Virus record (IMG/VR): IMGVR_UViG_3300011113_000396
Location: 49,453 to 113,452 of that record
Origin: a virus
Length of the DNA: 64,000 nucleotides
Direction: 5' to 3' (one strand)
Within the stretch, counting starts at the first letter, position 1, and every line of letters starts with the position of its first letter. Shown one piece after another: positions 16,289-63,844 of this stretch. The translations under genes were made by a program, and so were the position numbers. The notes beneath the pieces were generated by a model, which had not been told where the DNA came from, ran no database searches, and saw nothing but the letters and a program-made list of their open reading frames with translations.

Positions 16289-16289
16289 G

Positions 16290-17967: not shown

Positions 17968-17985
17968 ATATAAAATTAATTTATT

Positions 17986-20410: not shown

Positions 20411-20412
20411 AA

Positions 20413-21174: not shown

Positions 21175-21175
21175 T

Positions 21176-21943: not shown

Positions 21944-22033
21944 ATGCTTAATAATGAGGAAATAGAAGAAATTTTTAATAAATTTGTTAAAATAAATTAT
22001 ACTCATGAGTACGACACACGATATCACAAATAA
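21944..22033 (+). CDS. Very short ORF (29 aa), possibly a gene remnant
   Basis: ATG directly after the exostosin-like stop opens a 29-codon frame beginning MLNNEEIEEIFNKF and ending in TAA at 22033. It fills an otherwise empty 103-nt gap in a cluster where other genes nearly touch. It could be a small peptide, but a truncated relic of a lost gene is as likely. Confidence 0.25.
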   Translation: MLNNEEIEEIFNKFVKINYTHEYDTRYHK

Positions 22034-22046
22034 AAAAGGTCTAAAA

Positions 22047-22676
22047 ATGAAAAGAACTGAACAATTAGTAAATATATTAGAAGATTCCGATAAAAATTAT
22101 TTATTTTCTAAATTACCTGAATCTATTTTTAAAATTCAAGGCATGTCTGGAAAATATTTTAAAAATGTTTTAAACAATATTTTATCTAACACCTTTATTA
22201 AAGAATATCTTGAAATAGGCGTATGGAAAGGTTCAACCTGTGTTGCAGGATTGTATGAAAATCAAAATAGATTAAATTACCATATTATTGATAATTTTTG
22301 TTCTTTCGGTGGACCAAAAGAAGAATTTGAAAAAAATTTTCAAACATTTTTGAATAAACCGTCAAATATAATTGATGCAGATTGTTTTTCAATTAAACCA
22401 AGTGAGCATGGAATAAAAAATATAGATGTGTATTTTTTTGATGGTCCACATGAAAAAATAGATCAATATAATGCTCTCAAATATTATTATGAATATTTAA
22501 ACGAATCATTTATTTTTATTGTAGATGATTGGAATTGGGAAATGGTTAGACAAGGCACATGGGATGCTATTAAAGATTTAAATTTAAATGTTCATAAAAA
22601 TATAGAACATTTTACCGAAACACAGGATTCAAATACTTGGTGGAACGGGTGCAGTTTTTTTGTTTTGGAAAAATAA
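22047..22676 (+). CDS. Class I SAM-dependent methyltransferase-like protein
   Basis: 209 residues from ATG 22047, chosen because AAAAGGT lies 6 nt before it; an in-frame ATG at 22005 gives 14 extra, poorly conserved-looking residues. The segment YLEIGVWKGSTCVAGL is the glycine-rich motif I and IDVYFFDGPHEKIDQYNAL and FIFIVDDWNW follow in the order of methyltransferase family 24. Likely methylates a sugar or other small group in the glycan made by the cluster. Confidence 0.75.
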   Translation: MKRTEQLVNILEDSDKNYLFSKLPESIFKIQGMSGKYFKNVLNNILSNTFIKEYLEIGVWKGSTCVAGLYENQNRLNYHIIDNFCSFGGPKEEFEKNFQTFLNKPSNIIDADCFSIKPSEHGIKNIDVYFFDGPHEKIDQYNALKYYYEYLNESFIFIVDDWNWEMVRQGTWDAIKDLNLNVHKNIEHFTETQDSNTWWNGCSFFVLEK

Positions 22677-22678
22677 AC

Positions 22679-23350
22679 ATGAACTTAGATATTTCAAATA
22701 TTTTTATTTATATTATTCATTATAAAGGCGCAGTTGACAGAAAAACATATTTATCTGAATGGTTAGATCGCAACAGCTTAAAAGCAACATGGATGACAGA
22801 TCCAGATCGTAACGATCTTACACAAGAAGTAATATCGCAATATTATAATCAACATTGTACAAAAGAATGGTCTGATTATCCTCATCTCAATAGATCTTTG
22901 ACCAAAGGCGAAATAGCATGTTCCATTGCCCACTTGAATGTTTATAAGGATGCAATAGAAAAAAATTATTCTAATATATTAGTTTTAGAAGATGACTGTA
23001 CATTCGTACCAAATTTTATTTTAAAGTTTAATAAATTGATGGAAAAAATTCCAGATGATTATGACGTTATCTCTTTAGGATCATGTTGTAATTTAAAACA
23101 CGAAAAAGCCCATCTAGTAACAGAACCAACTTTATTTAAAAAAATACCGCCAGTTGGCAGATGTGCTTTTTCAAACCTTTTAAGTTTAAAAGGTTGTAAA
23201 AAAATCGTTGAAAGATGCATTCCATTTAGTTATCCAATGGATTGGCAAGCATTTGTGATAGCATCACAACATAATGAAGATCCGTTCAATTTTTATTGGG
23301 TAGAACCACCTATAACGATAGATGGTCAAAGTCCAACCACAGTAGGATAA
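22679..23350 (+). CDS. Glycosyltransferase family 25 (LPS-type galactosyl/glucosyltransferase)
   Basis: 223 residues from ATG 22679. The N-terminus FIYIIHYKGAVDRKTYL, the segment LTKGEIACSIAHLNVYKDAI and NILVLEDDCTFVPNF near residue 100 are the classic GT25 blocks (Lpt6/LgtB family and collagen glycosyltransferases). PDDYDVISLGSCC and the PMDWQAF block follow. GT25 members also glycosylate collagen hydroxylysine in animals, and a collagen-like protein is encoded about 4 kb downstream, but a functional link is only speculation. Confidence 0.88.
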   Translation: MNLDISNIFIYIIHYKGAVDRKTYLSEWLDRNSLKATWMTDPDRNDLTQEVISQYYNQHCTKEWSDYPHLNRSLTKGEIACSIAHLNVYKDAIEKNYSNILVLEDDCTFVPNFILKFNKLMEKIPDDYDVISLGSCCNLKHEKAHLVTEPTLFKKIPPVGRCAFSNLLSLKGCKKIVERCIPFSYPMDWQAFVIASQHNEDPFNFYWVEPPITIDGQSPTTVG

Positions 23351-23352
23351 AT

Positions 23353-23940
23353 ATGAACCAAAATTACTTAACTAATTTAATCGAAGATTGTTTATATGGC
23401 AAAACTGATATAAGCCAACATAGGCTGTTCTTATTTTCATTGGTGTGTGCAATGAAACCAAAAAAAATATTAGAACTTGGCGTCAGGGGTGGCCACTCAA
23501 CGAGTGCGTTGTTATATGCATGTGACCTCATTGATTCGCAGCTAACATCGGTCGATATATCAGACCACCATTTTAGTTGTCCCGAGGAATTGAAGCATAG
23601 GTGGTGGTTTACAAAAAGTGATGCAATAAAATTTTTAGAAACAACTTCCGAAACATATGATATGATTTTTATAGATGATTGGCACGCCGAGGAACACGTT
23701 TACAAAGAATTGACTTTACTAAAAGATAAAGTAAAGCCAAATAATCTTATATTACTTCATGATCTCATGCATAGTTTTTCCCATCCAAACTATACAACAC
23801 AGGTTTATCCGTCAGGGCATGAATTTGAGGGATTAGGTCCCTATGGTGGCGTTCTTAAATTTGTTAAAGAAAATGTAAATTTTGAGTTTGCCACCGTACC
23901 CACTAATCACGGAATGACCATTTTGAGAAAAACAATATGA
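23353..23940 (+). CDS. Class I SAM-dependent methyltransferase (family 24-like)
   Basis: 195 residues from ATG 23353. ILELGVRGGHSTSALLYA is motif I, LTSVDISDHHF motif II, and TYDMIFIDDWHAEEHVYKEL with NLILLHDLMHSF complete the family 24 layout, which includes sugar and rhamnosyl O-methyltransferases and some cephalosporin hydroxylase-like proteins. Lies 2 nt after the GT25 gene. Confidence 0.8.
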   Translation: MNQNYLTNLIEDCLYGKTDISQHRLFLFSLVCAMKPKKILELGVRGGHSTSALLYACDLIDSQLTSVDISDHHFSCPEELKHRWWFTKSDAIKFLETTSETYDMIFIDDWHAEEHVYKELTLLKDKVKPNNLILLHDLMHSFSHPNYTTQVYPSGHEFEGLGPYGGVLKFVKENVNFEFATVPTNHGMTILRKTI

Positions 23941-24764
23941 GACATTTAATATTAGGTTCAAGTGGACAGATAGGCTCACATTTAGTTCCTTATTTAAAAA
24001 CTAAAAACATTCAATCTATTGAATTTGACCTTGTCAACTCACCGTATCAAGATCTTAGAATAAATAATAATACTTTTCTTGAAAAATGTATAGATGAATC
24101 GGATTTTGTATATTTTTTGGCTTTTGATGTTGGTGGCTCACGATATCTCAAAACCTATCAAAATAGCTATTCTTTTATAGAAAATAATACAAAGTTGATG
24201 GACCAAACATTTGGGTTATTGAAAAAATACAATAAGCCGTTTCTATTTACTTCCTCACAAATGTCAAATATGGACTATTCACCATACGGAACATTAAAAC
24301 GATTGGGTGAATACTATACAAATTCTTTAAATGGTTTAGTTGTTAAATTTTGGAATGTATATGGGATTGAACATGACGAAAATAAATCTCATGTGATAAC
24401 TGATTTTATTAAAAAAGCATTAAAAAATAAAAAAATAGACATGCTTACTGATGGTTCGGAGGAAAGACAATTTTTATACGCTGATGATTGCTCTGAGTGT
24501 CTTTTGACTTTGTCTCAAAAGCTTAATATTTTGGATAGAACAAAAGAATATCACATTACAAATTTTAAATGGTCAAAAGTTATTGATGTGGCTAAAATTA
24601 TTCAAAAAAATATCGATTGCGATATTGTACCAGCAACAACAAAAGACTCAATTCAATTGAATAAAAAAAATGAACCGGATACACACATATTGCAATATTG
24701 GAAACCAAGAACCACGTTAGAAGAAGGTATAAATAAAATGTGTTTTTATTATAAGAAATTGTGA
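23937..24764 (+). CDS. NAD-dependent epimerase/dehydratase (extended SDR)
   Basis: 275 residues. N-terminal GSSGQIGSHL is the Rossmann GxxGxxG; the active-site Tyr-x-x-x-Lys is YGTLK near residue 122, with Ser in FTSSQMS before it. The segment GSEERQFLYADDCSE near residue 178 is typical of nucleotide-sugar SDRs. The exact substrate is not evident. Overlaps the methyltransferase by 4 nt. Confidence 0.85.
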   Translation: MRHLILGSSGQIGSHLVPYLKTKNIQSIEFDLVNSPYQDLRINNNTFLEKCIDESDFVYFLAFDVGGSRYLKTYQNSYSFIENNTKLMDQTFGLLKKYNKPFLFTSSQMSNMDYSPYGTLKRLGEYYTNSLNGLVVKFWNVYGIEHDENKSHVITDFIKKALKNKKIDMLTDGSEERQFLYADDCSECLLTLSQKLNILDRTKEYHITNFKWSKVIDVAKIIQKNIDCDIVPATTKDSIQLNKKNEPDTHILQYWKPRTTLEEGINKMCFYYKKL

Positions 24765-24776
24765 AAGGAATAAAAA

Positions 24777-25754
24777 ATGAAAAAAGCTCTTGTGCTGGGT
24801 GCTGGTGGATTTATCGGAGGTCATTTAGTAACTCGTCTAAAGAATGAAGGCTATTGGGTTCGTGGCGTTGATATAAAAGAACACGAATACAAAAAAACAG
24901 ATGCGGATGAGTTTTTTGTATTGGATCTGAGGATTCAAGAAAATGTTGCAAAATCACTTGCACTCACAAGTAATTCTGGATTTGATGAAATATATCAGTT
25001 AGCCGCAGATATGGGTGGTGCTGGTTACATTTTTACCGGTGATCACGATGCAGATGTTATGCACAATTCAGCGTTGATTAATTTGCACGTTACACAGGAA
25101 GCAATAAAATATGCTAAACTACCTAAAGTATTCTATTCATCTTCAGCATGCATGTATCCAGAATACAATCAACTAGATCCAGATAATCCAAAATGCTCAG
25201 AGGATTCTGCATACCCTGCTGCCCCCGATAGTGAATATGGCTGGGAAAAATTATTCAGCGAACGGTTATATTTGGCATATAATCGAAATTATGGTCTTCC
25301 TGTTCGTATTGGTCGTTTTCACAATATTTTTGGTCCATATGGATCATGGAATAATGGTAAGGAAAAAGCTCCAGCCGCAATATGCAGAAAAGTTGCTTTT
25401 TCTGAAAATGGTACAATAGAAATTTGGGGCGATGGAAAGCAAACAAGATCGTTTTTATATATCGATGATTGTGTAGAAATAGTAAGACGATTTATGGAAT
25501 CAGATTTTAATGGTCCTATGAATATAGGTTCAGAAGAAATGATATCTATAAATGGTTTAGCTGAATTAGTAATGCATTTGGCAAATAAAAAATTAATAAT
25601 CAAAAATATTTCTGGCCCTCAAGGAGTGCGTGGAAGAAATTCAGACAACAAATTGATGCGCGATAAACTTAATTGGGAACCAAATCAACCATTATCCATC
25701 GGTTTAAAGAAAACTTATGACTGGATTTATAGCTTAAAAACTTGTCAATATTAA
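24777..25754 (+). CDS. GDP-mannose 3,5-epimerase-like nucleotide-sugar epimerase
   Basis: 325 residues. GAGGFIGGHLV is the NAD site; AADMGGAGYI near residue 78, SSSACMYPEYNQ near 123 and the catalytic SEYGWEKLFSE near 154 are hallmark segments of GDP-mannose 3,5-epimerase, the plant-type enzyme making GDP-L-galactose or GDP-L-gulose. IGRFHNIFGPYG and DGKQTRSFLYIDDC complete the match. It would supply an unusual GDP sugar to the cluster, perhaps to the GT15 enzyme's pathway. A ribosome binding site (AAAGGA) precedes the start. Confidence 0.88.
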   Translation: MKKALVLGAGGFIGGHLVTRLKNEGYWVRGVDIKEHEYKKTDADEFFVLDLRIQENVAKSLALTSNSGFDEIYQLAADMGGAGYIFTGDHDADVMHNSALINLHVTQEAIKYAKLPKVFYSSSACMYPEYNQLDPDNPKCSEDSAYPAAPDSEYGWEKLFSERLYLAYNRNYGLPVRIGRFHNIFGPYGSWNNGKEKAPAAICRKVAFSENGTIEIWGDGKQTRSFLYIDDCVEIVRRFMESDFNGPMNIGSEEMISINGLAELVMHLANKKLIIKNISGPQGVRGRNSDNKLMRDKLNWEPNQPLSIGLKKTYDWIYSLKTCQY

Positions 25755-25769
25755 ATTAATTGGTATAAT
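25742..25769 (+). promoter_or_regulatory. Early sigma70-type promoter, predicted leaderless
   Basis: TTGTCA (25742-25747), 16-nt spacer, TATAAT (25764-25769), 6 nt, ATG at 25776. This separates the following gene from the sugar cluster, which has no comparable promoter. Confidence 0.8.
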
Positions 25770-25775
25770 AAAATT

Positions 25776-27005
25776 ATGAACCCTACAATAACATTATGCA
25801 TGATCGTTAAAAATGAATCCGCAGTGATTCTCCAGTGCCTTGAATCGATGTACAAGTATGTTGATCGATACGACATCACGGATACTGGTTCTACTGACGG
25901 AACCCAAGACATTATCCGCAAGTTCTTTGCAGAAAAGGGAATCCCCGGTGAGATCTACCAGTCAGATTGGAAGGGATTCGGTGACCATGCTGGCCGCATT
26001 GGTTCTAGAACCGAGGCTTTCCGAAACTGCGACGGCAAGGCTGACTATGTTTGGGTAATTGATGCAGATGATTATCTTGAAGGCGATTTCAAGTATCCCC
26101 CAAACATGAATGCTGCGGCCTATGCTCTTACATTTAAGAGAGATGATTTCACTTGGTGGAGAACTCAGATCTTCAAGAATGAACTTCTTTGGAGATATGT
26201 TGGTGTTCTTCATGAATATCCAGATACTGATAAGAAGCCATATGCTGTTGAAAAGATTCATGGCAATTATCATGTCACAGCCAGAACTGCTGGATTCGAA
26301 AGAAACGCAAACAAAACACTTGTTGAAAAGTATTCCAAGGATGCAGAAACCCTTGTCAAGGCTCTGGAAGAAGATCCAACGAATGTTCGATATATGTTCT
26401 ATCTTGGACAAAGCTATTTTGATTCGCAGCAATGGGGAAAGGCTGAAGATGCTTACCTAAAGCGTTCCAAGATGGGTGATTGGGGTGAAGAAGTATTCTT
26501 TTCTCTTTACCGAGCGGCAATCTGCAAGATTCTACAAGCAAAGGCATGGCCAGAAATTTATGATGCCTTCCTTAACGCTTACGAATCACGCCCAACAAGA
26601 GCAGAACCATTATATCAACTCGCTAGGCTAAATCGCCTACATAATAGACCAAGAACAGGATTTATCTATGCACAAATGGCAGCACAAATTCCATACCCTC
26701 AAGAAGACCTTCTTTTCGTTGATCACGGTATTTACAAGTGGGGTATTTTGGACGAAATTTCGTCAACTGCTTGGTATGCGGGTAAGCCCCACATCGGCTT
26801 TGAAGCCAGCCGCGTGCTGCTGCAAGAGAAAAGGTTGCCGCAAGACCAAACAGACAGAGTCACGAAGAACTTCTTAACTTATAAGGATCTGCTAGAAAAA
26901 CTCCACACTCAGCAGCAGATGAATGTGGAAGCAGAAAAGGAGAAGGCAAAGCAACAAAAGAAACAGCAGAAAAAGATGAAAAGGATGCAAAAGTTAAGAA
27001 GGTGA
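25776..27005 (+). CDS. GT2 glycosyltransferase with TPR-like C-terminal region
   Basis: 409 residues. N-terminal GT-A domain: [32 protein letters not shown] and the metal site [12 protein letters not shown] near residue 93. From about residue 190 there are TPR-like helices ([28 protein letters not shown] is longer than needed; the pattern repeats at about 195-225 and 260-300), and the C-terminus is a Lys/Gln tail. This SunS-like fusion is common in T4-like phages. Its own early promoter and richer GC content set it apart from the AT-rich island upstream. Confidence 0.88.
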
Positions 27006-27006
27006 C

Positions 27007-28734
27007 ATGAAATTCTCAGATATCTTTAAAAAAGAACAAAAAATAAATCTTGCTGGCCTAACCAAGCAAGATGTTCTTTTATTAAAAGAAGATATTTCAG
27101 AATTTAAGACTGGTACTAAGTTTACTGTCAATCCCAAAAACAAGAGTGATAAGTCCGTAGAAATAGGCGATGGTCTTACCGAATTGCATCTAGTTGATGA
27201 AAAAGGTAAAACTGTCCTATTTTCGGGAAATTACTCAAAAATTGCGTCATTATTCACAATTTTAGAGGAAAAGACCCCCGAACCACAAATCATAGTTGTA
27301 GAAAAAACTATTGTCAATGAGATAAAAAAGAAACAAGTAATAGAAGGCAAAGAAGGTCCGATAGGGCCACAAGGCCCAAGAGGTGATATTGGAGCCAGAG
27401 GGGAACTAGGACCTGTTGGGGCTAAGGGAGAGCGCGGAGAACAGGGTGAGGTGGGCGAACAGGGTCCACAGGGCATTGCTGGCCCAATCGGGCCTAAAGG
27501 TCCAGTAGGACCGCAGGGGCCAAAGGGAGACAAGGGAGATAAAGGCGATCAGGGAGTTCCCGGAGAACGAGGTCCTATAGGCCCAGAAGGTCCAAAGGGA
27601 GATCGCGGAGAAGCTGGAGAGCCGGGACTTGATGGATTGCAGGGAGAACGAGGGCTAATTGGTCCGCAGGGTCCAAAGGGAGATATGGGAGAACCGGGTC
27701 TTCCCGGACCAAGAGGCCTAATGGGTCCACAAGGACCAAAGGGAGAGCGCGGAGAACCCGGAGAACAGGGTCCAGAAGGTCCTCAAGGTCCAATAGGACA
27801 AGACGGCCTTCCCGGTGAAAAGGGCGACAAGGGCGATCCCGGTGTCGTTTCTGCCAGTTTTCCATTAATCTACGACAAAAAATCGGCAAATCTAAGTTTT
27901 GACACTAAATTTTTGGACGATAAGATCACCAAGATAGCTGTAGATCCACTTTTGGCTAGCGGTGGCAGTGGTCTGGGTGTCAAAGAAAACGGATCAATAC
28001 TTGTCAAAACGGGTGTTGATTATTTGGATTTTAGAGGTTCTATTGATCTTACCAGACAAGGTAGAACTGTTATCGTTACAGGAACATCTTCAGGATCTGG
28101 TACTGGCATAACTGGCCCTACAGGTCCAACTGGTCCAGCGGGTGCAACTGGTGCTGACGGATCGATTGGTCCTGTGGGTCCGACTGGTGTTACGGGAGTT
28201 ACTGGTGCTGATGGTTCAATTGGCCCTATTGGTCCAACAGGTGCTACAGGCGTTACAGGAGCAGACGGTTCAATCGGCCCTATTGGTCCAACAGGTGCAA
28301 CTGGAGTTACTGGTCCTATTGGACCTACTGGAGCTACAGGACCATCTGGTATAACCAATATTAATGGTATTACTTTATCCCCTGTAACTATAAGAGATGG
28401 AACTGGAATTTTAATAGCAAATAATATTCCAAATAGAGAAATAAGTATTGAAAACGCTTGGGGAGAATTAGCAGATTCGAATTCAACCCTTGAACCGTAT
28501 ATTTTAGTTAGTTTAAATGGATTAATAGGTGCTCCATCATTATTTGCCGGAACAGGAATAACTCTCTCTGTCGGAACTCAAGGTATTACAATTTCATCCA
28601 CTTTACCCAAGTTCACGGAAGGGACAACTGCCCCAGCAAATCCAATTGCAGGAGATAGGTGGTACAATACAGACGATGGTGTGATATACACATCAGTTAC
28701 TAAATCAGGATCACAAATTTGGATAGTTGGATGA
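27007..28734 (+). CDS. Collagen-like fibre protein
   Basis: 575 residues. A charged N-terminal domain (to about residue 112) is followed by an unbroken Gly-X-Y region to about residue 280 rich in Pro, Lys and Glu ([16 protein letters not shown]), then a globular link. A second Gly-X-Y block of the bacterial GPTGATG type spans about residues 367-450, and a C-terminal domain ends in [15 protein letters not shown], a common fibre-tip motif. Such proteins form trimeric rods on phage tails or heads. Lies one base after the previous stop, with no late box of its own visible. Confidence 0.88.
27346..27846 (+). repeat. Gly-X-Y collagen repeat block 1
   Basis: About 55 consecutive Gly-X-Y triplets with charged X/Y residues. 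The DNA is a 9-bp-periodic GGN pattern. Antisense proline-rich ORFs over this block are artefacts of the repeat. Confidence 0.9.
28106..28350 (+). repeat. Gly-X-Y collagen repeat block 2 (GPTGATG type)
   Basis: About 27 triplets in near-identical 36-45 bp units ([17 protein letters not shown]). Thr-rich bacterial-type collagen; Thr may carry O-linked sugars. Confidence 0.85.
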
Positions 28735-32795: not shown

Positions 32796-33389
32796 ATGAA
32801 AAAAAGAATACAATCAAGAGTTTACAGAAAAATATACGAAAACTATTATGGGGTAAAAATTCCTAAAGGAATGCATATACACCATATAGACGGAAATAGA
32901 GAAAACAACGATCCTTTAAATTTAAAGTTGTTAACTCCAAAAGAACATTTTGCTATACATTTAGAACAAGGCGATCCTATTTGTCAACATGGAAAATTTT
33001 TACAAGGAGCATCTGAAGCGGGTAAAAAAGGAGGAAGATCTACCTCGTTAAAAAAAGTAAAATGTTGTGCTGATAATATGAAAAAAAATAGAAGAGCCGA
33101 TTTAGGAGCAAAAGCTTCTGTGGAGGCAAGAAAAAAAGCAAAAACATTTTTCTTTTCCGAAGACTATCAAAAACAACTCCAAAAAAGATTAAAAGAACAA
33201 AAAATTGGACCCTATTCAGATGAACATAAAGAAATGGTAAGCAAATTAGGTAAATCAAAAGGAAAAAAACCAATTTACGGAGATAAAACATGGGTTAGTT
33301 CTTACGAAGCTTCCGTAGAAACTAAGTTACCAGCAAGTACAATTAGATATCGTTGTAGAAATAATATTAAAGGATGGAGATATGAATAA
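32796..33389 (+). CDS. HNH homing endonuclease (free-standing)
   Basis: 197 residues. HNH core MHIHHIDGNRENNDPLNLKLL near residue 27 with the following HFAIHLEQ. The middle is Lys/Gly-rich (GKKGGRSTSLKKVK), typical of phage homing enzymes. The C-terminus TWVSSYEASVETKLPASTIRYR is a NUMOD1-like helix-turn-helix for target DNA binding. It lies between dUTPase and the Nmad1-like gene, whose start it overlaps by 8 nt. Confidence 0.88.
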   Translation: MKKRIQSRVYRKIYENYYGVKIPKGMHIHHIDGNRENNDPLNLKLLTPKEHFAIHLEQGDPICQHGKFLQGASEAGKKGGRSTSLKKVKCCADNMKKNRRADLGAKASVEARKKAKTFFFSEDYQKQLQKRLKEQKIGPYSDEHKEMVSKLGKSKGKKPIYGDKTWVSSYEASVETKLPASTIRYRCRNNIKGWRYE

Positions 33390-36328: not shown

Positions 36329-36895
36329 ATGTACCAGCACCAAGACCATATTGGTGAATTTGATAAGGTAATGGTATTTGGAATTCAATCTTGCTCAGGA
36401 AGCGCGATGACTTTCCATGTCATGACTGACTATGGATTGGTTAGAAGTAGAGTCCCAATCCACATGTTGTGCTGGAAACAAGATGCACCTCCTATGCCTC
36501 TGGATTATCTACAGCTGTGGGATTGCTTTCATGAAAATGTTTCTGTTGTAGAATATGATGCTTTATTTGATACAAGAGCAAAGGTTATTCTGAAAGATAA
36601 GTCAGAGCATTGGGGGGAATACGTTATGACATTTGATTGGTATCGAAATTCTTATTCCGATGAACCATCTCAGTATAAATGTCTTCATATGATTGCTTTG
36701 GACAATGGCAACTACACTCTACAACCAAATAATAGAATCTATTGGAAGAATATGTCATTTGTAACTAAACCTTTTCCTACAAACCCGGATTTCAAGGTTG
36801 ACAACAAGAGTTGGAGATGCGAGGGAGAAAGTGATCGCTGGATCATTGACGGACACGACGATAATTACTATTATGATATCAAGGAGAATAAATAA
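36329..36895 (+). CDS. Conserved T4-like phage protein between polymerase and UvsX
   Basis: 188 residues from ATG 36329, which has AAGGA 5 nt before it; the frame extends upstream to 36278 but only with TTG. The sequence is aromatic and Trp/Tyr/His-rich ([31 protein letters not shown]). I recall an unnamed protein of this kind in the same place in marine T4-like phages. Function unknown. Confidence 0.7.
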
Positions 36896-37800
36896 TGGAT
36901 TTTTTAAAGGAAATGATTAATGCGTCTGGTAACAAATTTGCTAGCAAAGTCGAAGACGGTCTTGACGGATCTGATGTTGGTGGGTATGTTGATACTGGGT
37001 CTTATGCTTTTAATGCTCTTCTTTCTGGCAGTCTTTTTGACGGTTTACCTAATAACAAGATTACCTGTTTGGCTGGTGAGTCTGCTACTGGCAAGACTTA
37101 CTTCAGCCTTGGTATCGTTGCACAGTTTCTTGCAGCCAACCCCGAAGGCGTAGTACTATACTTTGATACCGAACAGGCAGTAACTAGCGACATGTTTACA
37201 GAGCGCGGTGTGGATCCTACTCGCGTTGCTGTTTTCCCAGTAGAAACAGTTGAAGAGTTCCGCCACCAGTGCCTGACAATCGTTGACAAGGTTCTTGCGA
37301 CAGACGAATCTGAGCGCAAGCCGATGATGATTGTCCTTGACTCACTGGGCATGTTGAGCACTGCCAAGGAAATGAATGATGTCGCTGAAGGTAAGAATAC
37401 CCGCGACATGACACGCGCACAAGTCATCAAGGGAACCTTCCGTGTTCTTACGCTGAAGCTTGGCAAGGCCAAGATTCCCATGGTTATGACAAACCATACT
37501 TATGATGTCGTTGGTTGCCTATCAGACGATGTCAATGTCCTAATGGAAGATGGAACGGTGAAGAATATCTCTGATGTTGTGGTTGGAGACAGAGTGGAAA
37601 CAATGGGCGGATCATCCTCAGTTACCAAACTATTTTCGTATGATGTGAATGAAGTTATTGAAGTTGAACTAAGTGATGGTACAACTTTCTTTGCTACCCC
37701 AAATCACAAGTTTATGACAAGAGATGGTTCTTGGAAACCTATCTCAGACATCGGGGAGGGTGAGGATATTCTTGCTGTCGAGGAGTTTGCGAAGTCGTGA
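36895..37800 (+). CDS. uvsX: UvsX recombinase N-terminal part fused to N-half of split intein
   Basis: 301 residues: UvsX residues 1-207, then 94 residues of intein. UvsX part: Walker [10 protein letters not shown] near residue 62, ATPase [11 protein letters not shown] near 91, Walker [12 protein letters not shown] near 143 and TNHTYDVVG before the break. Intein part: Cys208 starts block A ([13 protein letters not shown]), and block [15 protein letters not shown] has the TxxH motif. The frame then ends in TGA. It needs the product of the ORF at 38416 to be spliced into active recombinase, the RecA-like strand-exchange protein. AAGGAG precedes the start. Confidence 0.95.
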
Positions 37801-38535
37801 ATAAGGAATACCAATACTCTTCGCTGCCCATCGAATGCTTGGATATGAAACTCCATTCACGACAACTTCCTTTGATCTTGGATCACATAGGGACTTCTTT
37901 AGTTTGTATGAATCTGATGTTACCGATTCCTTCCATTTTGTGGAGTTTCGTCTACCTTCAGATAATGCCTCTCCATCGTAGTTTTTTCGCAAAATGTCGG
38001 GGTCTATTGTCTTATATGTTCTACGACCTTCTGCATATGCTTGCTTCAAAGAAATGGATCTTTTGGTACGGGATTGTTCTGAATGGATTTTTCCCTTCAG
38101 AGAATCTGAAATGTTTTTCTTCCAATCAACCGAAGAGTCAGATTTTATGAACTTTTGGAATCCATCTTTGGCTAGTTCTATTCGTGTCACTTCTGCTTCT
38201 TCGGTCTTTCCGGAAAGCATTTTCCAAGCCACAAAGTCTTCTTGTTTGCCGTGTTTCTCATATAGGAGTCTGTGTGCTTCTGCGTGTTCTTTAACAGAAA
38301 GAAGAACAAGATTTGATGGGTCATCAGTTCCACCCATGTGTCTTGGTATTATATGATGTTTATGTTTTAAATTAATTTGCATTACCCCATATGTATGGTT
38401 TAGGAGATTTAAACAATGAGTATTCTACAAATAGTAAAAAAGACGGTACACACTAATCGTCCAACCAAGGTTTATGATTTTACTGTCGAAAACGACCACC
38501 ACTATATTCTTTCCAACGGAGTTATTTCCCACAAC
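37516..38535 (+). mobile_element. Fractured-gene insertion in uvsX: IntN, antisense HNH gene, IntC
   Basis: IntN codons 37516-37797, stop at 37800, HNH gene on the minus strand 37744-38382, IntC codons 38416-38535. Joined exteins read NHTYDVVG then [10 protein letters not shown], matching an uninterrupted UvsX. Cys1, block-B His, terminal His-Asn and Ser+1 are all present, so splicing in trans should work. Confidence 0.93.
37744..38382 (-). CDS. HNH homing endonuclease inside fractured uvsX, antisense
   Basis: 212 residues. HNH core [19 protein letters not shown] near residue 5, then [18 protein letters not shown]. The C-terminus [20 protein letters not shown] followed by [11 protein letters not shown] is a NUMOD1-like DNA-binding helix-turn-helix. 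Its last 57 nt are antisense to the end of IntN, so the two genes converge and overlap, and it diverges from IntC. GGGG just before the ATG is the only ribosome binding candidate; no clear promoter. Confidence 0.9.
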
Positions 38536-38925
38536 TCTTATGTTCCAATGAAAGAACTAGGTGGTGGATCTGGTCTAAAATATGCGGCTTCTACTATCGT
38601 AACATTGTCCAAGAAGAAGGACAAGCAGGATGATGAAGTTGTAGGTAATATCATTACTTGCAAGCTTTACAAGAGCCGACTAACCAAGGAAAACAAGATC
38701 GTTCAGGTTCAACTGAATTTCGATAGCGGTCTGAACCGTTACTACGGTCTTGTTGACCTTGCCTTGGATTACGGTATCTTCAAGAAGAACTCTACCAAGA
38801 TTGAGCTTCCTGATGGTACAAAGGTGTTTGAGAAGCATATCAACGAAGAACCTGAGAAGTATTTCACTCAGGAGATTCTAAAGCAAATTGATGAGCGCGT
38901 TCAGGAGGATTTCAAGTATGGCTGA
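38416..38925 (+). CDS. uvsX: C-half of split intein fused to UvsX C-terminal part
   Basis: 169 residues: a 40-residue IntC, then 129 residues of UvsX. IntC has block [18 protein letters not shown] and block G GVISHN, with Ser41 as the +1 nucleophile. The extein [20 protein letters not shown] with [12 protein letters not shown] completes the recombinase, giving a spliced protein of 336 residues. A strong TAGGAG 9 nt before the ATG gives independent translation. Confidence 0.95.
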
Positions 38926-42532: not shown

Positions 42533-42586
42533 ATATTGACTAAATACCCAACACGGCTAGAATGCCACAACAATAAGGAAAATTTA

Positions 42587-44350
42587 ATGCAATTACCGAC
42601 CCCATACCAGAGTTTTATCCATTCTTCGCGTTATGCTCGTTGGATAGAGGCAGAATCGCGCAGAGAATCGTGGTCAGAGACTGTTTCTCGTTATTTTAAT
42701 TTCTTCGAAGAACATTTGAAGAATAACTGCAACTACAAACTTCCCAAGGAACTACGAAAGGAACTTGAAGCTGCCGTGCTCAATCTAGAAGTCATGCCAT
42801 CCATGCGTTGTCTCATGACCGCAGGAGAGGCACTTGAGCGCGATCATGTGGCTGGATATAATTGCTCATACGTTTCTACAAACAAAGTTCGTTCTTTTGA
42901 TGAAATTTTATATATCCTTATGTGCGGAACCGGTGTCGGGTTTTCCGTAGAAAGGGAATTCGTTGAAAAACTTCCTACTATTGCTGAAGAATTTACAGAT
43001 AGCGATTCACTCATTGTGGTTGAAGATTCTAAGATCGGTTGGGCTAAAGCCTACAAAGAACTATTCTCGCTACTTATTGGTGGTCAGATACCGCGATGGG
43101 ACATTTCAAAAATTCGCCCTGCGGGAGCGAGACTTAAGACCTTTGGTGGACGAGCGTCAGGACCTGAACCTCTGGAAGACCTTTTCCGCTTTACCGTTGA
43201 AACCTTCCGTAAGGCAGCTGGTCGTAAACTCACGACGGTCGAATGCCACGATATCGTATGCAAAATTGCTGAAATCGTCGTTGTAGGTGGCGTTCGTCGT
43301 TCTGCTCTCATCTCTCTATCGTCACTTGACGATGACCGTATGCGTAATGCAAAGAGCGGTGCATGGTGGGAGAACAATGGTCAACGCGCACTAGCAAACA
43401 ACTCTGCCTCATACAAGAGCAAGCCAGACATGGAAACCTTCATGGACGAATGGGTTGCACTTGTCAAGAGCAAGAGCGGTGAGCGTGGTATCTTCAATCG
43501 TCAGGCCGCAAAGAACCAGATCAAGCGTCTTGGTGATCGTCGCAATCCAAACTATGACTTCGGAACCAATCCTTGCTCAGAAATTATTTTGCGTGATCGT
43601 GAGTTCTGCAACCTATCTGAAGTCGTGATTCGTGCTGACGATACTCCAGATACTCTTGCTCGTAAGGTTCGTCTTGCTACCATTCTTGGTACATTCCAGT
43701 CAACTCTTACAAAGTTCCGCTACCTGTCAAGCGATTGGCAGAAGAACTGTGAAGAAGAGCGTCTGCTTGGTGTGTCTCTGACTGGTATCATGGATAACGA
43801 GATCACTAATGGTCGTGCGGGTGATCTACCAGATCTACTTGAGCATCTACGCCATGTCGCGGTGGATACTAACAAGGAGTATGCTCATAAGCTAAAAATC
43901 AACGAGTCTGCTGCAATCACTTGCGTCAAACCTTCAGGGTGTGGAACTTTAGACACTAAAATTAAAACTACAAATGGTATTATGTCATTTGCTGAGATAT
44001 TTGAATTCTGTGGAAAAGATCCAGAAAATCTATTAGAGGGATCGTGGGTACAACCACCTGTTGAATTGTTTGTATATGATCAAAACGACGATCTAAGAAA
44101 GGTTACAAATCTCTATGTAAAGGGTATGTCACCCGTATTTGAGATTGAAGATGAACACGGTAATGTTTATAAATTTTCACCAGAACATAAATTACTGACC
44201 AATAATGGTTGGAAGTGTATGCGAGAATTAACTACAGATGACTACATCATGTCATTTGATCCTCTTGAAAATCTTAAAACACTATATACTAGTGGTGTAT
44301 TAAACCAAGAGGAAGTTAATGAATCGAAAGAAAATAAGACGTTATTATAA
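42587..44350 (+). CDS. nrdJ: Class II (B12-dependent) ribonucleotide reductase N-part fused to N-half of split intein
   Basis: 587 residues from ATG 42587 (AAGGAAA upstream): 451 residues of NrdJ, then 136 of intein. NrdJ part: MCGTGVGFSVEREFVEKLP near residue 110, GGVRRSALISLSSLDDD near 225, the active-site NPCSEIILRDREFCNLSEVV near 320 and the break after ITCVKPSG. Intein: Cys452 starts block A (CGTLDTKIKTTNG) and block B is FSPEHKLLTNNGW with ExxH-type His. The frame ends 31 nt inside the downstream HNH gene. It converts ribonucleoside triphosphates to deoxy forms only after trans-splicing. Confidence 0.95.
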   Translation: MQLPTPYQSFIHSSRYARWIEAESRRESWSETVSRYFNFFEEHLKNNCNYKLPKELRKELEAAVLNLEVMPSMRCLMTAGEALERDHVAGYNCSYVSTNKVRSFDEILYILMCGTGVGFSVEREFVEKLPTIAEEFTDSDSLIVVEDSKIGWAKAYKELFSLLIGGQIPRWDISKIRPAGARLKTFGGRASGPEPLEDLFRFTVETFRKAAGRKLTTVECHDIVCKIAEIVVVGGVRRSALISLSSLDDDRMRNAKSGAWWENNGQRALANNSASYKSKPDMETFMDEWVALVKSKSGERGIFNRQAAKNQIKRLGDRRNPNYDFGTNPCSEIILRDREFCNLSEVVIRADDTPDTLARKVRLATILGTFQSTLTKFRYLSSDWQKNCEEERLLGVSLTGIMDNEITNGRAGDLPDLLEHLRHVAVDTNKEYAHKLKINESAAITCVKPSGCGTLDTKIKTTNGIMSFAEIFEFCGKDPENLLEGSWVQPPVELFVYDQNDDLRKVTNLYVKGMSPVFEIEDEHGNVYKFSPEHKLLTNNGWKCMRELTTDDYIMSFDPLENLKTLYTSGVLNQEEVNESKENKTLL

Positions 44351-45042
44351 GGAAAATAAAGGACCAATACCAAAAGGATATGAAATACATCACATAATTC
44401 CTCTTTACGAGGGAGGATCAAATGATATTTCAAATCTAATAGCACTTTCATTTGAAGATCATAAAAAAATACACCATGAAAGATATTTAAAAAATGGTAA
44501 TGTTAGAGATTTGATGGCTAGTAAAATTGGAATATCATCTTCTCAACTAAAACTAGAAAAATGTAGATTGGGTGGTAAAAAAGGCGCAGAAACGCAAATA
44601 AAAAATAAAATTGGAATTCACTCTCAAACAAAAGAAGAAAGATTGATATTAGCGTCCAAGGGTGGTAAACGAGGAGCATTTACTCAATCGAAATGGCAAT
44701 CTGAATTTGGAAAACGGGGTGGAATCAAAAATAAAGGTTTTGTTTGGTTGACTAATGGTATTGATAATATTAAATATACAAAAAAACAACAACAATTAAA
44801 AAGCATAAAACAGTTCATTGAAGAAAATAAAGACTATAGAATAGGAAGAACAGAACCTAAACTCATCTGTTCTGTGTGTGGAAAACAATTAAACGCAAGA
44901 GCAATCGGAAGATTTCATAACGAAAGGTGTAAACATGGTAAAAATAAAATCAATTAAAAAACTTTCACCCGAATTTATGGTCGATATAGAGGTAGAGGGT
45001 ACTCACTCATATCAACTATCCAACGGATGGATTTCTCACAAT
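43940..45042 (+). mobile_element. Fractured-gene insertion in nrdJ: IntN, HNH gene, IntC
   Basis: IntN codons 43940-44347, HNH gene 44319-44957 on the same strand, IntC codons 44935-45042. Joined exteins read ITCVKPSG then TVSQLVDAASG, which matches uninterrupted class II reductases. Cys1, block-B His, His-Asn end and Thr+1 are present. HNH overlaps IntN by 32 nt and IntC by 23 nt. Confidence 0.93.
44319..44957 (+). CDS. HNH homing endonuclease inside fractured nrdJ
   Basis: 212 residues. HNH core YEIHHIIPLYEGGSNDISN near residue 21. Gly/Lys motifs GGKKGAETQIKNK and FGKRGGIKNKGFVWLTNG are typical of this phage homing group. The C-terminus LICSVCGKQLNARAIGRFH with NERC after it is a zinc finger also common there. 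GAGG 6 nt before the ATG. Same size as the uvsX HNH gene, but the sequence differs apart from the core. Confidence 0.92.
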   Translation: MNRKKIRRYYKENKGPIPKGYEIHHIIPLYEGGSNDISNLIALSFEDHKKIHHERYLKNGNVRDLMASKIGISSSQLKLEKCRLGGKKGAETQIKNKIGIHSQTKEERLILASKGGKRGAFTQSKWQSEFGKRGGIKNKGFVWLTNGIDNIKYTKKQQQLKSIKQFIEENKDYRIGRTEPKLICSVCGKQLNARAIGRFHNERCKHGKNKIN

Positions 45043-45612
45043 ACAGTTTCGCAACTTGTGGATGCTGCTTCGGGTATTCATGCTCGTCACGCTAGTTATT
45101 ACATTCGTCGTGTTCGCGCTGACCGTAAGGACCCAATCTGCCAGTTTATGATTGACAAGGGATTCCCTGCCGAGCCATGCGTAATGAAGCCAAACCATAC
45201 TATGGTCTTCTCATTCCCCATGAAGTCTCCTGAACATTGCATTACTCGTAATGACATGACCGCTCTTGAGCAGTTGCAACTCTGGCTAACATATCAACAG
45301 TACTGGTGCGAACATAAGCCAAGCGTTACCATCACTGTTCGTGATGAGGAGTGGATGGAAGTCGGGGCGTGGGTATATTCTCACTTCGATGAGATCAGCG
45401 GTATTTCGTTCCTTCCGCACTCAGATCATACTTATCGTCAGGCTCCCTATGAAGATTGCACTAGAGAGCAATACGAGGCACTTTTGAATAAGATTCCATC
45501 AACAGTGGATTGGTCAGAACTGTCTAAGTATGAAAAGGAAGACAACACCACTGGCACACAAACATTCAGTTGCACTGCTGGCTCATGTGAGCTAGTAGAT
45601 TTGACTAAATAA
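44935..45612 (+). CDS. nrdJ: C-half of split intein fused to class II RNR C-terminal part
   Basis: 225 residues: a 36-residue IntC (FMVDIEVEGTHSYQLSNG as block F, WISHN as block G), then 189 residues of NrdJ starting at Thr37. The extein has TVSQLVDAASGIHARHASYY near the junction and ends in TFSCTAGSCELVDLTK, the Cys-rich C-terminal tail that re-reduces the active site. The spliced reductase is 640 residues. AAAGGTG near the start gives its own ribosome binding site. Confidence 0.95.
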   Translation: MVKIKSIKKLSPEFMVDIEVEGTHSYQLSNGWISHNTVSQLVDAASGIHARHASYYIRRVRADRKDPICQFMIDKGFPAEPCVMKPNHTMVFSFPMKSPEHCITRNDMTALEQLQLWLTYQQYWCEHKPSVTITVRDEEWMEVGAWVYSHFDEISGISFLPHSDHTYRQAPYEDCTREQYEALLNKIPSTVDWSELSKYEKEDNTTGTQTFSCTAGSCELVDLTK

Positions 45613-49910: not shown

Positions 49911-50388
49911 TGGGTGCGAGGAAGATATCAAGGACATAAAGTTTTCTCTTATTCTTCGAAACATTAATATGAAGATCCATACCCACGCCACCATTGAATT
50001 CCTTGATACCATCGGTCATTAAGAATCCATCTTTGAGAAGATCATGCTCAGGTGAGGTTCCAAATGTTCCACCATATCTTGTAATTGGGAAAACATTTTC
50101 ACCAACATTTAGTGGAGTCTGCATGGTAAAGTTAAAATCAATACCTACAAGATTCAATTTTGCTCTTAGAAGAGCGATTGCACCCTTTGGATCAATATAG
50201 TCTCTTGATCCGAAAGCATTGAGGAACGCATTTACTCTTTCAAATTGTTCCCCGTTTTCAATTCTAAAGGCTCCAAAATCTGAAACGGCAGATCTTGTGG
50301 TTCTTGTGGGTTCGCCGGGTTGACCGAGGCCACCAGCGAAATAGTCTTCGTTTTCGAAAAGTTTTTGTGTTAGATCTTTAAATTTCAT
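49903..50388 (-). CDS. Conserved small phage protein, structural-type
   Basis: 161 residues. N-terminal MKFKDLTQKLFENEDYFAGG, then a beta-rich region ending in MDLHINVSKNKRKLYVLDIF. It starts in a 4-nt overlap with the intein-containing gene and sits in a coupled operon. Role unknown, likely head or neck associated. Confidence 0.65.
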   Translation of the reverse strand: MKFKDLTQKLFENEDYFAGGLGQPGEPTRTTRSAVSDFGAFRIENGEQFERVNAFLNAFGSRDYIDPKGAIALLRAKLNLVGIDFNFTMQTPLNVGENVFPITRYGGTFGTSPEHDLLKDGFLMTDGIKEFNGGVGMDLHINVSKNKRKLYVLDIFLAPNA

Positions 50389-52511
50389 TTCTTGAATTCC
50401 TCAAATATTCCCTTCAGATAATTGATCCTCATATTCTGAGGTTCCATATCCTTTACCTTCTTAGTATTTATCATTTGATGAATCATATCACCGGGAGTTT
50501 CTTCGATTTTTGTGCCTTTATTGATCTTGAATTGATATTCGTTCATTGCTTCGGTGTCATCTGGAGATGAATCGCAACCGCATCCTTCAACGGCTTCTGA
50601 AATCTTTCTCCATCCTCCACCCTTCTTTTTGTAGCACTTTGCAGCCCAAGCATTGGCATAGGCTGAATTTCCTGTTATGGTTACAAATCCATTTTGAATC
50701 ATAACCCATGTATTATTTTCAGTCTCGGGACACCATACTTCTTCAGTACCAGCATCTTCAATTATTAGATTTTGGGTATTGTGTGTTTTCTTATTTCTAA
50801 TGATTGTAGCGGCCTTCATTTCTGGATATTTGTCAGAGAAAGAAACATGATAACCATTTAAGGATGCTGCGAGAATAGCAGCGTAGAAATGATCTTCGTT
50901 CTTCTGGCTAAAACCAAATGTATGACGTTTTTCTATCTTTGTGCTGATTCCCTGATCGTGGCCATCATAAACAATTGCACTGGCCAAAAATATTTCTCTT
51001 TGTTCTTTGGACATAGAAAGAACTTTTTCTGTCCATGAGTTTTTCTTTGACCAATTTTCTAAAATTAAATCAGAAGAATTGTTAAGTTCTGAGCAACAAA
51101 CTAGTTGCATGTGCTTATTGATGTCCTTAGTTTCCACCAAACCAGTATTTTGATAGTCAGAACCACTCTTAACTACCCATTTGTGATTAGGGGTACATTT
51201 TATCTTAAATCCGGTTGCTTTGCCCATCTCAACAATAGGAGCATCATCAAAATGATGTAGATTAAGTATTGGTTTCCATTCAAGTTCATCATTTTGAATA
51301 TTGTATGATAAAATTTCATCTCCAATCACAAGATTGTGGTAGCTTTCTGGTCCATTTCTAGTAATCGCTAGAGAATCCATTGTAACACATGGATATACAT
51401 CAAACTTTTGTTTAGCTTGAGCAATGCAAGCACTCCACTTTTTCTTATCTGTTGGAGAGTTCTTTTCCAAAAGAACTCCATATGAAAGAGCTTCTTCCGA
51501 AAGAAGAGAAGAAACGCTTCTCTTGCTCCAGAATCTACAAGCCCAGTATCTAGCCTTCCAGATGGGACCGGGATTATCGCAATTGTGGCGTGCGCGGAAG
51601 TTCTTTCTTCTGGCTGGATTATCTCTTTTGATTTCCATGTTTGGATCGCCAAACTCAACCTTTACGACATTTCCCTTGTCGTTCTTGACATAGACCTTAT
51701 ACTTCTTGACATCGCCACGCATTGGCTTATTTAGTTTGACTTTTTTGCCTTTGTGTTCGGCAGCTTCTTCAAGGAAACCCCAGCTATTTTCTTGGAAGTA
51801 CTTATTTTCTGATTCAAAGAAGACGGCAACAATTTCATCGCCAGAGCATTCTTCGATTGTTTCAAGGCCGCGATCAAGCCCCATGGATTCAACAATCAAC
51901 TTCAAAGTGCCATCCCGGTGATAAGATATTTCTTGGACTTCTACGGGAGTGGTTGCATTCTTGTAATAAACATCCCCCACATTCAGCTGTCTGGCAAGCT
52001 TGCCAACAGAGTGAATTACGACTCCGACTGGAGTTTTCATTTCGACAATCTTCTTGTCCATTTCACAGGGAGGAGTCTTATATTTTTTGTTTCTTTTTGA
52101 GATATCCATAGATTGACCGGGTGTGTTGGCTTTCGTCTTTTTATTTATGTCCATTAATTCGTCTGGAATTATTGTTTCTTCGTTCATCTTCTTTTTCTTT
52201 GCTGCCCCGGTCTCGACATAGACAGGCTTTCGGCCTTTACCGCCTTCGCCTTTTTCGTCATATCCAGCCTTTTTCTGAGCTTTTCTTTTTCTTTTGACAA
52301 ACGACGAAATACCTTTTTTACCTAATTTGTTTGCTTTTTGTTTTGATAAACAAGCAGAATAGGCCTCACCTTCCTTGGCATCTCCGCATTTACCGACTCT
52401 TTTTCCCGATGAGTCATATCTGTCCCAGCCGGGTTCTGAATTGGCAGATTCGTCGTGAAACCATTTGCCCAAACCAGAATCTTTATATACCTCATCGAGT
52501 TTATTTTTCAT
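50385..52511 (-). CDS. DUF5872-type phage protein interrupted by a contiguous intein
   Basis: 708 residues as translated: 374 of N-extein, a 241-residue intein, and 93 of C-extein, so 467 after splicing. N-terminus GLGKWFHDESANSEPGWDRY and GEAYSACLSKQKA match DUF5872. The middle has VKKYKVYVKNDKGNVVKVEF and FRARHNCDNPGP, conserved in T4-like phages. The C-extein joins QKFDVYP to SAYANAWAAKCYKKKGG. Intein: Cys375, TPNH block B, C-terminal NTWVMIQNGFVTITGN and Ser+1. Small charged protein, probably involved in head or DNA-end functions; role unknown. Confidence 0.85.
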   Translation of the reverse strand: MKNKLDEVYKDSGLGKWFHDESANSEPGWDRYDSSGKRVGKCGDAKEGEAYSACLSKQKANKLGKKGISSFVKRKRKAQKKAGYDEKGEGGKGRKPVYVETGAAKKKKMNEETIIPDELMDINKKTKANTPGQSMDISKRNKKYKTPPCEMDKKIVEMKTPVGVVIHSVGKLARQLNVGDVYYKNATTPVEVQEISYHRDGTLKLIVESMGLDRGLETIEECSGDEIVAVFFESENKYFQENSWGFLEEAAEHKGKKVKLNKPMRGDVKKYKVYVKNDKGNVVKVEFGDPNMEIKRDNPARRKNFRARHNCDNPGPIWKARYWACRFWSKRSVSSLLSEEALSYGVLLEKNSPTDKKKWSACIAQAKQKFDVYPCVTMDSLAITRNGPESYHNLVIGDEILSYNIQNDELEWKPILNLHHFDDAPIVEMGKATGFKIKCTPNHKWVVKSGSDYQNTGLVETKDINKHMQLVCCSELNNSSDLILENWSKKNSWTEKVLSMSKEQREIFLASAIVYDGHDQGISTKIEKRHTFGFSQKNEDHFYAAILAASLNGYHVSFSDKYPEMKAATIIRNKKTHNTQNLIIEDAGTEEVWCPETENNTWVMIQNGFVTITGNSAYANAWAAKCYKKKGGGWRKISEAVEGCGCDSSPDDTEAMNEYQFKINKGTKIEETPGDMIHQMINTKKVKDMEPQNMRINYLKGIFEEFKK
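50667..51389 (-). mobile_element. Contiguous intein with reduced endonuclease region
   Basis: Residues 375-615 of the host protein. 241 residues is longer than a mini-intein (about 135-150) but shorter than a typical LAGLIDADG intein. The insert holds REIFLASAIVYDGHDQGIST followed by FSQKNEDHFYAAILAASLNG, which looks like a single degenerate LAGLIDADG helix and half-domain. Splicing residues are intact (Cys1, TPNH, Gly-Asn end, Ser+1); homing activity is probably lost. Confidence 0.88.
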
Positions 52512-57951: not shown

Positions 57952-58479
57952 TCAATTCCTTAAAAATTTCTTCCATTCTTGATTGTGATATATGTATTCG
58001 CGCAATCCGAGAATACTTACAAATGGGGGCTTGGGTTTCTTTTCTAGATTAAGACCCGATTCTTTGAGTGGCTTGTTTGCTTTTTTCAAATTGCAGCAGT
58101 GGCATGATGTCACCAGATTTTCCCATGTGGATCCGCCACCCTTTGACTTAGGAACAACATGGTCAAGTGTTGCATTCTTATCATCAAGATCTTTCTTGCA
58201 ATACTGGCAAGTGTATTGATCCCGAAGGAATATGTTTTTCCGCGTGGGAGGAATCCTTCTAAATGGCACACGCACGAATGTTTTTAAGATGATTGTCTTA
58301 GGCAATTTAACGACTTGCTCTGAGGTCTTAATCTCATAAAAATCATTGCTGTAATTCAAGGCTTTTCCATTGTTTAGAAGCTTAACAGCCTTGATCCAAT
58401 CAACAATGTTGAGTATTTCCTCTGATGCATTTAGCAGAAGAACTTTACGAATCATTCGTGAATATTTAGGTTTACTCAT
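57952..58479 (-). CDS. HNH endonuclease, McrA-like
   Basis: 175 residues. A basic N-terminal region leads to NIFLRDQYTCQYCKKDL, TLDHVVPKSKGGGSTWENLV and TSCHCCNLKKANK near residues 82-135, a complete HNH with CxxC zinc pairs (CxxC-DHVxP-N-CxxC). The wide family is found in many bacteria and phages. It has its own early promoter. It could be a defence, homing or DNA-processing enzyme. Confidence 0.92.
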   Translation of the reverse strand: MSKPKYSRMIRKVLLLNASEEILNIVDWIKAVKLLNNGKALNYSNDFYEIKTSEQVVKLPKTIILKTFVRVPFRRIPPTRKNIFLRDQYTCQYCKKDLDDKNATLDHVVPKSKGGGSTWENLVTSCHCCNLKKANKPLKESGLNLEKKPKPPFVSILGLREYIYHNQEWKKFLRN

Positions 58480-63410: not shown

Positions 63411-63484
63411 GCCTCCGTAGCTCAGTTGGTAGCAGCATTTGACTTTTAATCAATAGGTCGTAGGTTCGAATCCTACCGGAGGCA
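63411..63484 (+). tRNA. tRNA-Lys (anticodon UUU)
   Basis: Acceptor stem GCCTCCG/CGGAGGC is perfect, T arm GTAGG-TTCGAAT-CCTAC is canonical, anticodon loop CTTTTAA gives UUU. The D stem has a C-C mismatch at its end and the anticodon stem a T-T at its top. A73 follows; CCA is not encoded. AAA codons are frequent in this AT-rich genome. Confidence 0.92.
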
Positions 63485-63487
63485 TTG

Positions 63488-63844
63488 ATGTGTAAGTGTA
63501 AATTTTGCAACAAGACTTTCAATACACATAAAGAATCCAACGCAAGTATCTGTGGATCATGTAGTGTGTCCAAGCGTAGATGGATCTCTAAAATTGCTTT
63601 AGTAAAACAATTAGGTGGAAAATGTAGCAAATGTGGTTTTGCTGGTCATCCCAGTGCATTACATTTCCATCATGTAGATCCAAAAGAAAAGAACTACTCC
63701 ATAAACAGTAATAAATTAATCGCAAAAGATAGATTGAATGAAGTAAAGAAATGCATTCTTCTTTGCGCTAACTGTCATTCAATTCAACATGCAAATAATG
63801 ATTTGCTTAAGTCGTTTGGTCTTCTTAATGAAGATTGGCTTTGA
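63488..63844 (+). CDS. HNH endonuclease directly after tRNA-Lys
   Basis: 118 residues from ATG 63488, 3 nt past the tRNA. CKCKFCNKTFN and CGSCS at the N-terminus, then GGKCSKCGFAGHPSALHFHH and DPKEKN with CILLCANCHSIQHA near residue 85: two zinc CxxC pairs and the HNH core (HxHHxDP ... NCHS). A free-standing homing-type enzyme, co-transcribed with the tRNA. Confidence 0.9.
   Translation: MCKCKFCNKTFNTHKESNASICGSCSVSKRRWISKIALVKQLGGKCSKCGFAGHPSALHFHHVDPKEKNYSINSNKLIAKDRLNEVKKCILLCANCHSIQHANNDLLKSFGLLNEDWL

Follow-up and report, generated by a model that had tools for sequence, protein, structure and literature searches.

The window, the stretch of 64,000 nucleotides analysed here, comprises bases 49453-113452 of the 113-kb virus record IMGVR_UViG_3300011113_000396. 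The major capsid protein of this record is ~56% identical to homologues of T4-like cyanophages and pelagiphages, and the carrier is an uncultured T4-like phage. An open frame on the minus strand encodes a 708-aa precursor (Table 1), and the same frame is present in a contig that is 99.99% identical (L003/L105). Precursor residues 375-615 start with Cys, end with TITGN and are followed by Ser at +1, and their removal gives a joined protein of 467 aa. A sequence-only reading had described a 241-residue intein at 50667-51389, splitting KFDVYP/SAYANAWA in a non-enzymatic, DUF5872-type protein. The length, the coordinates and both junctions proved exact, and the host protein is without a recognisable enzyme domain. 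The family assignment held in part: neither the precursor nor the joined 467-aa protein matched DUF5872, and the joined 48-aa extein motif (E=0.0018, 19.3 bits) and a relative, L126 (26.9 bits), both scored below the gathering cut-off of PF19197 (27.5). A sub-threshold relation therefore stands, membership above the cut-off does not, and by its sequence the extein motif is DUF5872-like only.

Table 1. Features of the intein-containing gene, in window positions
Feature	Position	Strand	Evidence or remark
Intein-containing precursor gene, 708 aa	50385..52511	(-)	Open frame; same frame in L003/L105
N-extein, 374 aa, ends ...KFDVYP	51390..52511	(-)	Mosaic
Intein, 241 aa, Cys1 to Asn241	50667..51389	(-)	Homologues with and without insert; AF2; PDB fold matches
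Cys1, intein N-terminal residue (block A)	51387..51389	(-)	Invariant in 40 members
Block B, T66-P-N-H69-K-W71	51177..51194	(-)	T66, H69, W71 invariant in 40 members
Single-repeat LAGLIDADG-fold domain, residues 112-210	50760..51056	(-)	AF2, Foldseek, omega
LAGLIDADG-type helix FLASAIVYDG, residues 134-143, putative catalytic Asp142	50961..50990	(-)	Y141, D142, G143 invariant 39/39
Gln162-Lys163, end of second strand of half-domain	50901..50906	(-)	Invariant 39/39
Block F, VWCPETENNTW, residues 218-228	50706..50738	(-)	V218-P221, T223, T227, W228 invariant in 40 members
Block G, GFVTITGN, residues 234-241	50667..50690	(-)	T239, G240, N241 invariant in 40 members
C-extein, 93 aa, begins SAYANAWA, stop codon included	50385..50666	(-)	Ser at +1

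The N-extein contains a phrog_7595 module and a weak DUF5754-like match. Relatives carrying the same intein have quite different extein surroundings (e.g. DUF5661 in L011), which indicates that the intein targets a short motif that recurs in many mosaic phage proteins; no second copy of the motif was found in the 113-kb record. Its closed form occurs in the cultured Synechococcus phage S-BM3, in the gene directly after the terminase small subunit, and in phage DSL-LC04, where it forms a stand-alone 62-aa protein encoded in the head-gene region. Judged by its neighbours, the host protein probably has a late or virion-associated role.

The window is rich in homing-type nucleases. In a fractured UvsX/RecA-like gene (36895-38925), an N-intein half closes the N-terminal ORF (36895-37800, +), the opposite strand holds an HNH ORF (37744-38382, -), and the next ORF (38416-38925, +) opens with a C-intein half. 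Pfam supported RecA, the intein halves and HNH at this locus, which resembles the split-intein "fractured genes" reportedly described by Dassa et al. in 2009. A second fractured gene (42536-45612) encodes ribonucleotide reductase: an N-intein half ends 42536-44350, an HNH ORF (44319-44957) overlaps both neighbours, and a C-intein half (..GWISHN/TVSQLVDAASG) opens 44935-45612. Free-standing HNH genes lie at 32796-33389 (PF13392, E=3.6e-13) and 57952-58479 (PF14279, E=8.1e-15). By ORF translations only, a long run of glycosyltransferase-, nucleotide-sugar- and methyltransferase-like ORFs (14919-27005) precedes collagen-like repeat proteins at 27007-28734. A single tRNA gene, tRNA-Lys (TTT), was found in the window (63411-63484), and a small Cys-rich ORF of HNH-like look (63485-63844) comes directly after it.

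The intein scored 22.4 bits against Pfam Intein_splicing (PF14890; E=1.2e-4, curated cut-off 35.8) and 19.1 bits against NCBIfam TIGR01445 (E=0.002, cut-off 24.5); the family is divergent from both models. Because these scores were weak, homologues were used as the main test of intein identity. Environmental viral contigs were scanned with the joined 48-aa motif, which gave at least 596 relatives, and 80 empty-site loci were kept. The results showed that the motif was closed exactly at the junction in 80/80 kept loci (KFDVYPSAYANAWA in 69, close variants in 11). An AlphaFold2 model of the intein, built with 40 family members in the alignment, reached a mean pLDDT of 94.3 and revealed an intein fold into which one alpha-beta-beta-alpha-beta-beta unit is inserted. 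Foldseek matched this model to PI-SceI, TliVMA, PhoVMA and the class 3 intein AceL NrdHF, and the best PDB matches were endonuclease-bearing inteins (E down to 1.9e-9). Two of the checks proposed with the sequence-only reading, intein-free homologues uninterrupted at the same junction and structure prediction of the insert, thus came out in favour of an intein.

Splicing blocks A, B, F and G, Cys1 and the terminal Asn are present and invariant in the family (40 members), and Ser is found at +1 in the listed complete members of both insertion sites described below. Taken together, the sequence evidence and the predicted model indicate that the insert is an intein with a Hint/intein fold. A native domain of the protein would be compatible with a Pfam score below the curated cut-off; this candidate was ruled out by the 80 homologues closed at the exact junction, and the terminal Asn, the +1 Ser, the four intact invariant splicing blocks and the predicted fold likewise speak against it, so that we give it almost no credence.

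Block B was recognised by its published motif definition (PMC7891396, PMC3196547). W71 (B:12), C220 (F:4) and T239 (G:5) form a WCT triplet that is invariant in 40 members and whose occurrence together with Cys1 the earlier reading had overlooked. The WCT triplet is the signature of class 3 inteins (PMC7891396, PMC5050341, PMC3196547). Class 3 inteins are defined by having no N-terminal nucleophile, whereas Cys1 was found in 40/40 members, and we therefore regard the family as class 3-like and do not file it as class 3. At the penultimate position Gly replaces His, as it does in the mycobacteriophage RDF intein (PMC5050341). Self-excision with extein ligation is predicted. Proline at -1 is unusual for efficient splicing, and in site 1 it may slow the first splicing step.

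The inserted unit was also modelled alone. AlphaFold2 of the 99-residue domain returned an alpha-beta-beta-alpha-beta-beta arrangement (pLDDT 91.7), which Foldseek aligned to the halves of PI-SceI over 74-84 columns (probability 0.93-1.00, TM 0.47-0.60), with weaker matches to I-DmoI, I-SceI, I-CvuI and I-Vdi141I. The E-values were modest (best 0.009) because the domain is small, and none of the LAGLIDADG sequence models matched the half-domain. In the intein model the helix spans residues 128-142. Alignment to two-repeat relatives (phiWec187 DNA polymerase, GMA3 terminase, Lahirium portal and L164) showed that the first repeat is absent and the second kept, in agreement with the earlier proposal that the endonuclease region has shrunk and keeps one LAGLIDADG-type helix. 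According to the model, the endonuclease part is about half the usual size and has one LAGLIDADG repeat; the retained unit (~97 aa) is short compared to known one-repeat enzymes (~150 residues). W119, R131, Y141, D142, G143, Q162, K163 and H167 were identical in 39/39 members that keep the domain. The LAGLIDADG aspartate is D142, and by motif Q162 resembles the catalytic Gln47 of I-CreI.

The intein search gave 14 family loci and the family-profile search 60, with insertions at two sites. Site 1 is typically KFDVYP/SAYAN[AG]WA, and site 2 lies 4 codons further into a related motif, RY.VWPSAYA/SGALVKCRKVGA. The tree separates the inteins by site, those of each site lying together on one side of a branch (support values 91 and 98). 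The two sites have a DNA core in common, GT.T..CC....GC.TA.GC, which could serve as a shared recognition sequence. For the allele census, junction-pattern scans, which beyond Cys1 (site 1) or Cys-Val (site 2) are independent of intein type, were united with the aligned family. The census comprised 51 distinct complete alleles, which share ancestry and are not independent events: 46 were one-repeat and 5 were endonuclease-free mini-inteins. Site 1 contributed 30 (26 one-repeat; 4 mini-inteins of 138 aa, L181, L184, L199 and L204) and site 2 contributed 21 (20 one-repeat; 1 of 168 aa, L162/L215). No two-repeat allele was found among the 51 at either site; the count may have missed alleles truncated at a contig end or bounded by different junction codons. 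The four 138-aa mini-inteins form a separate clade, and the mini-inteins at both sites look unlike the one-repeat form and keep Cys1 and the WCT triplet. Since the splicing motifs persist in these mini-inteins, the splicing fold does not require the half-domain, and this speaks for mobility as the reason for its retention. Among bacterial genomes, the relatives amounted to one weak partial match in a Neisseriaceae MAG (25% over 91 aa).

Among 16 pairs of >85% identity, the dN/dS of the half-domain was 0.02-0.11 (median 0.050), no higher than that of the splicing part in the same close pairs (median 0.068). The half-domain is under strong purifying selection. The window intein and the L004 intein share 98% aa identity (dS 0.22), whereas the N-exteins of the two carriers share 64% and the C-exteins 42%, and the dS of the exteins and most neighbouring genes ranged from 1.4 to saturation (one weakly aligned gene further off: 1.14). 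Nucleotide identity falls within ~60 bases of the intein junctions. An intein dS of 0.22 between flanks near or at saturation indicates that the intein moved recently. Three carriers have intein-free relatives with 73-84% identical exteins. The sequence-only reading had regarded the intein as caught during loss of its homing enzyme; this finds no support in the one-repeat form of 46/51 alleles at two sites, the omega of 0.05, the invariant catalytic-type residues and the recent transfer. Decay as the best reading was rejected on omega and the invariant residues, and the half-size form looks like a working compact mobile element, not a decaying one.

We consider it fairly probable that the locus holds a splicing intein with a one-repeat LAGLIDADG endonuclease whose half-domain is kept by selection for homing. 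The precursor would splice, releasing the intein and restoring the 467-residue protein; the free intein would most likely cut intein-free PSAYA-motif genes of co-infecting phages, and recombination and repair would then copy the intein into the cut gene. DNA cleavage by the half-domain is predicted, and the recent transfer and patchy occupancy are only indirect signs of site-specific cleavage and homing; ordinary recombination between phages, with no cut involved, could also account for the transfer. With one repeat per chain, two chains would have to act per cut, possibly as a homodimer of excised inteins. Homodimeric LAGLIDADG enzymes act on symmetric targets (PMC13405050), and the symmetry of the insertion site is weak, 5-37% of random coding windows being as good; because of this, dimerisation is the weakest step of the argument. 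A more elaborate version, in which a stable lineage uses the one-repeat enzyme as a homodimer, splices by a mixed class 1/3 route and has sister clades at two PSAYA points through the shared DNA core, is put forward tentatively.

An alternative, suggested by the missing repeat, is an endonuclease that has already lost its activity and is disappearing, with the single helix as the remnant of a two-repeat enzyme. One repeat is indeed absent relative to two-repeat relatives, the endonuclease-free mini-inteins at both sites reveal that complete loss happens, and a degenerated endonuclease is known from the intein PhoVMA (PMC8966425). However, degenerated PhoVMA has lost active-site residues (PMC8966425), whereas the half-domain is under strong purifying selection with D142 and Q162-K163 invariant; the recent transfer and the one-repeat form in two site-specific clades also count against ongoing loss, which we judge unlikely. 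Somewhat less likely still is a mutualism in which the half-domain no longer cuts and is kept to stabilise or assist splicing, as has been suggested for some endonuclease domains (PMC8966425). Such a role would explain the purifying selection without nuclease activity, but the mini-inteins of 138 aa (site 1) and 168 aa (site 2) keep all splicing motifs although the half-domain is absent, the invariance is concentrated at positions expected for catalysis, and mutualism alone does not explain the recent transfer.

Spread by ordinary homologous recombination or by a trans-acting endonuclease, and not by the intein's own domain, is improbable. T4-like phages recombine readily and several HNH nucleases are encoded in the window, which both count for this explanation. 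Nevertheless, the highly similar tract is the intein plus ~60 bases on each side, extein similarity beyond it is low, and the purifying selection on the half-domain would be left unexplained.

To our knowledge, the described LAGLIDADG endonucleases of inteins are two-repeat single chains, and smaller ones have usually been read as decay. If selection for homing does maintain the half-domain, then an endonuclease can be halved and still drive spread, here in a one-repeat lineage whose sisters at the same site have no endonuclease. The intein would also be a compact natural splicing-plus-cutting module, and the family would allow a direct test of Cys1 versus the internal Cys as the start of splicing. 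In addition, these inteins have settled outside replication genes, in a phage motif that is short and widespread. The literature searched (open-licence papers only, and hence weak evidence of absence) held no description of one-repeat LAGLIDADG inteins and no example of an intein-embedded homodimeric one-repeat LAGLIDADG endonuclease.

Among annotated inteins, the closest relative, with 34% identity, lies in DNA polymerase I of the Escherichia phages phi92 / PaulScherrer (Justusliebigvirus; 245 aa, MZ501100). It resembles the window intein in size class, one LAGLIDADG repeat, a WCT triplet with Cys1 and an ITITGN end, and differs in its host, a DNA polymerase, and in its unrelated insertion site. 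The best viral structure match, the Klebsiella phage ZCKP1 intein, is the same intein as the phi92-type, which is annotated; the literature searched held no study of its endonuclease. Class 3 inteins (e.g. MP-Be DnaB, MchDnaB1, AceL NrdHF; PMC3196547, PMC7664689, PMC7891396) share the WCT triplet and the phage setting. As defined they are without Cys1, which is invariant in the window family. Mixed class 1/3 signatures were reportedly noted by Tori and Perler in 2011 in Catera Gp206 and JS614 TOPRIM. Homodimeric endonucleases of the I-CreI / I-CvuI type also have one repeat per chain, and I-CvuI and I-Vdi141I were among the weak fold matches, but these enzymes are ~150 residues long, are encoded by introns as free proteins and have symmetric targets (PMC13405050, PMC3943268). 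In PI-SceI, TliVMA and the phiWec187 DNA polymerase intein, a LAGLIDADG-fold domain is inserted at the same place in the intein fold; they carry two repeats in one chain, the first of which the window intein is without. Closely related coliphages differ in the intein of DNA polymerase I: PaulScherrer (L002) has a one-repeat intein of 245 aa, and phiWec187 (L102) has a two-repeat intein of 324 aa at another site of the protein. These phages offer a cultured system for the question of one versus two repeats.
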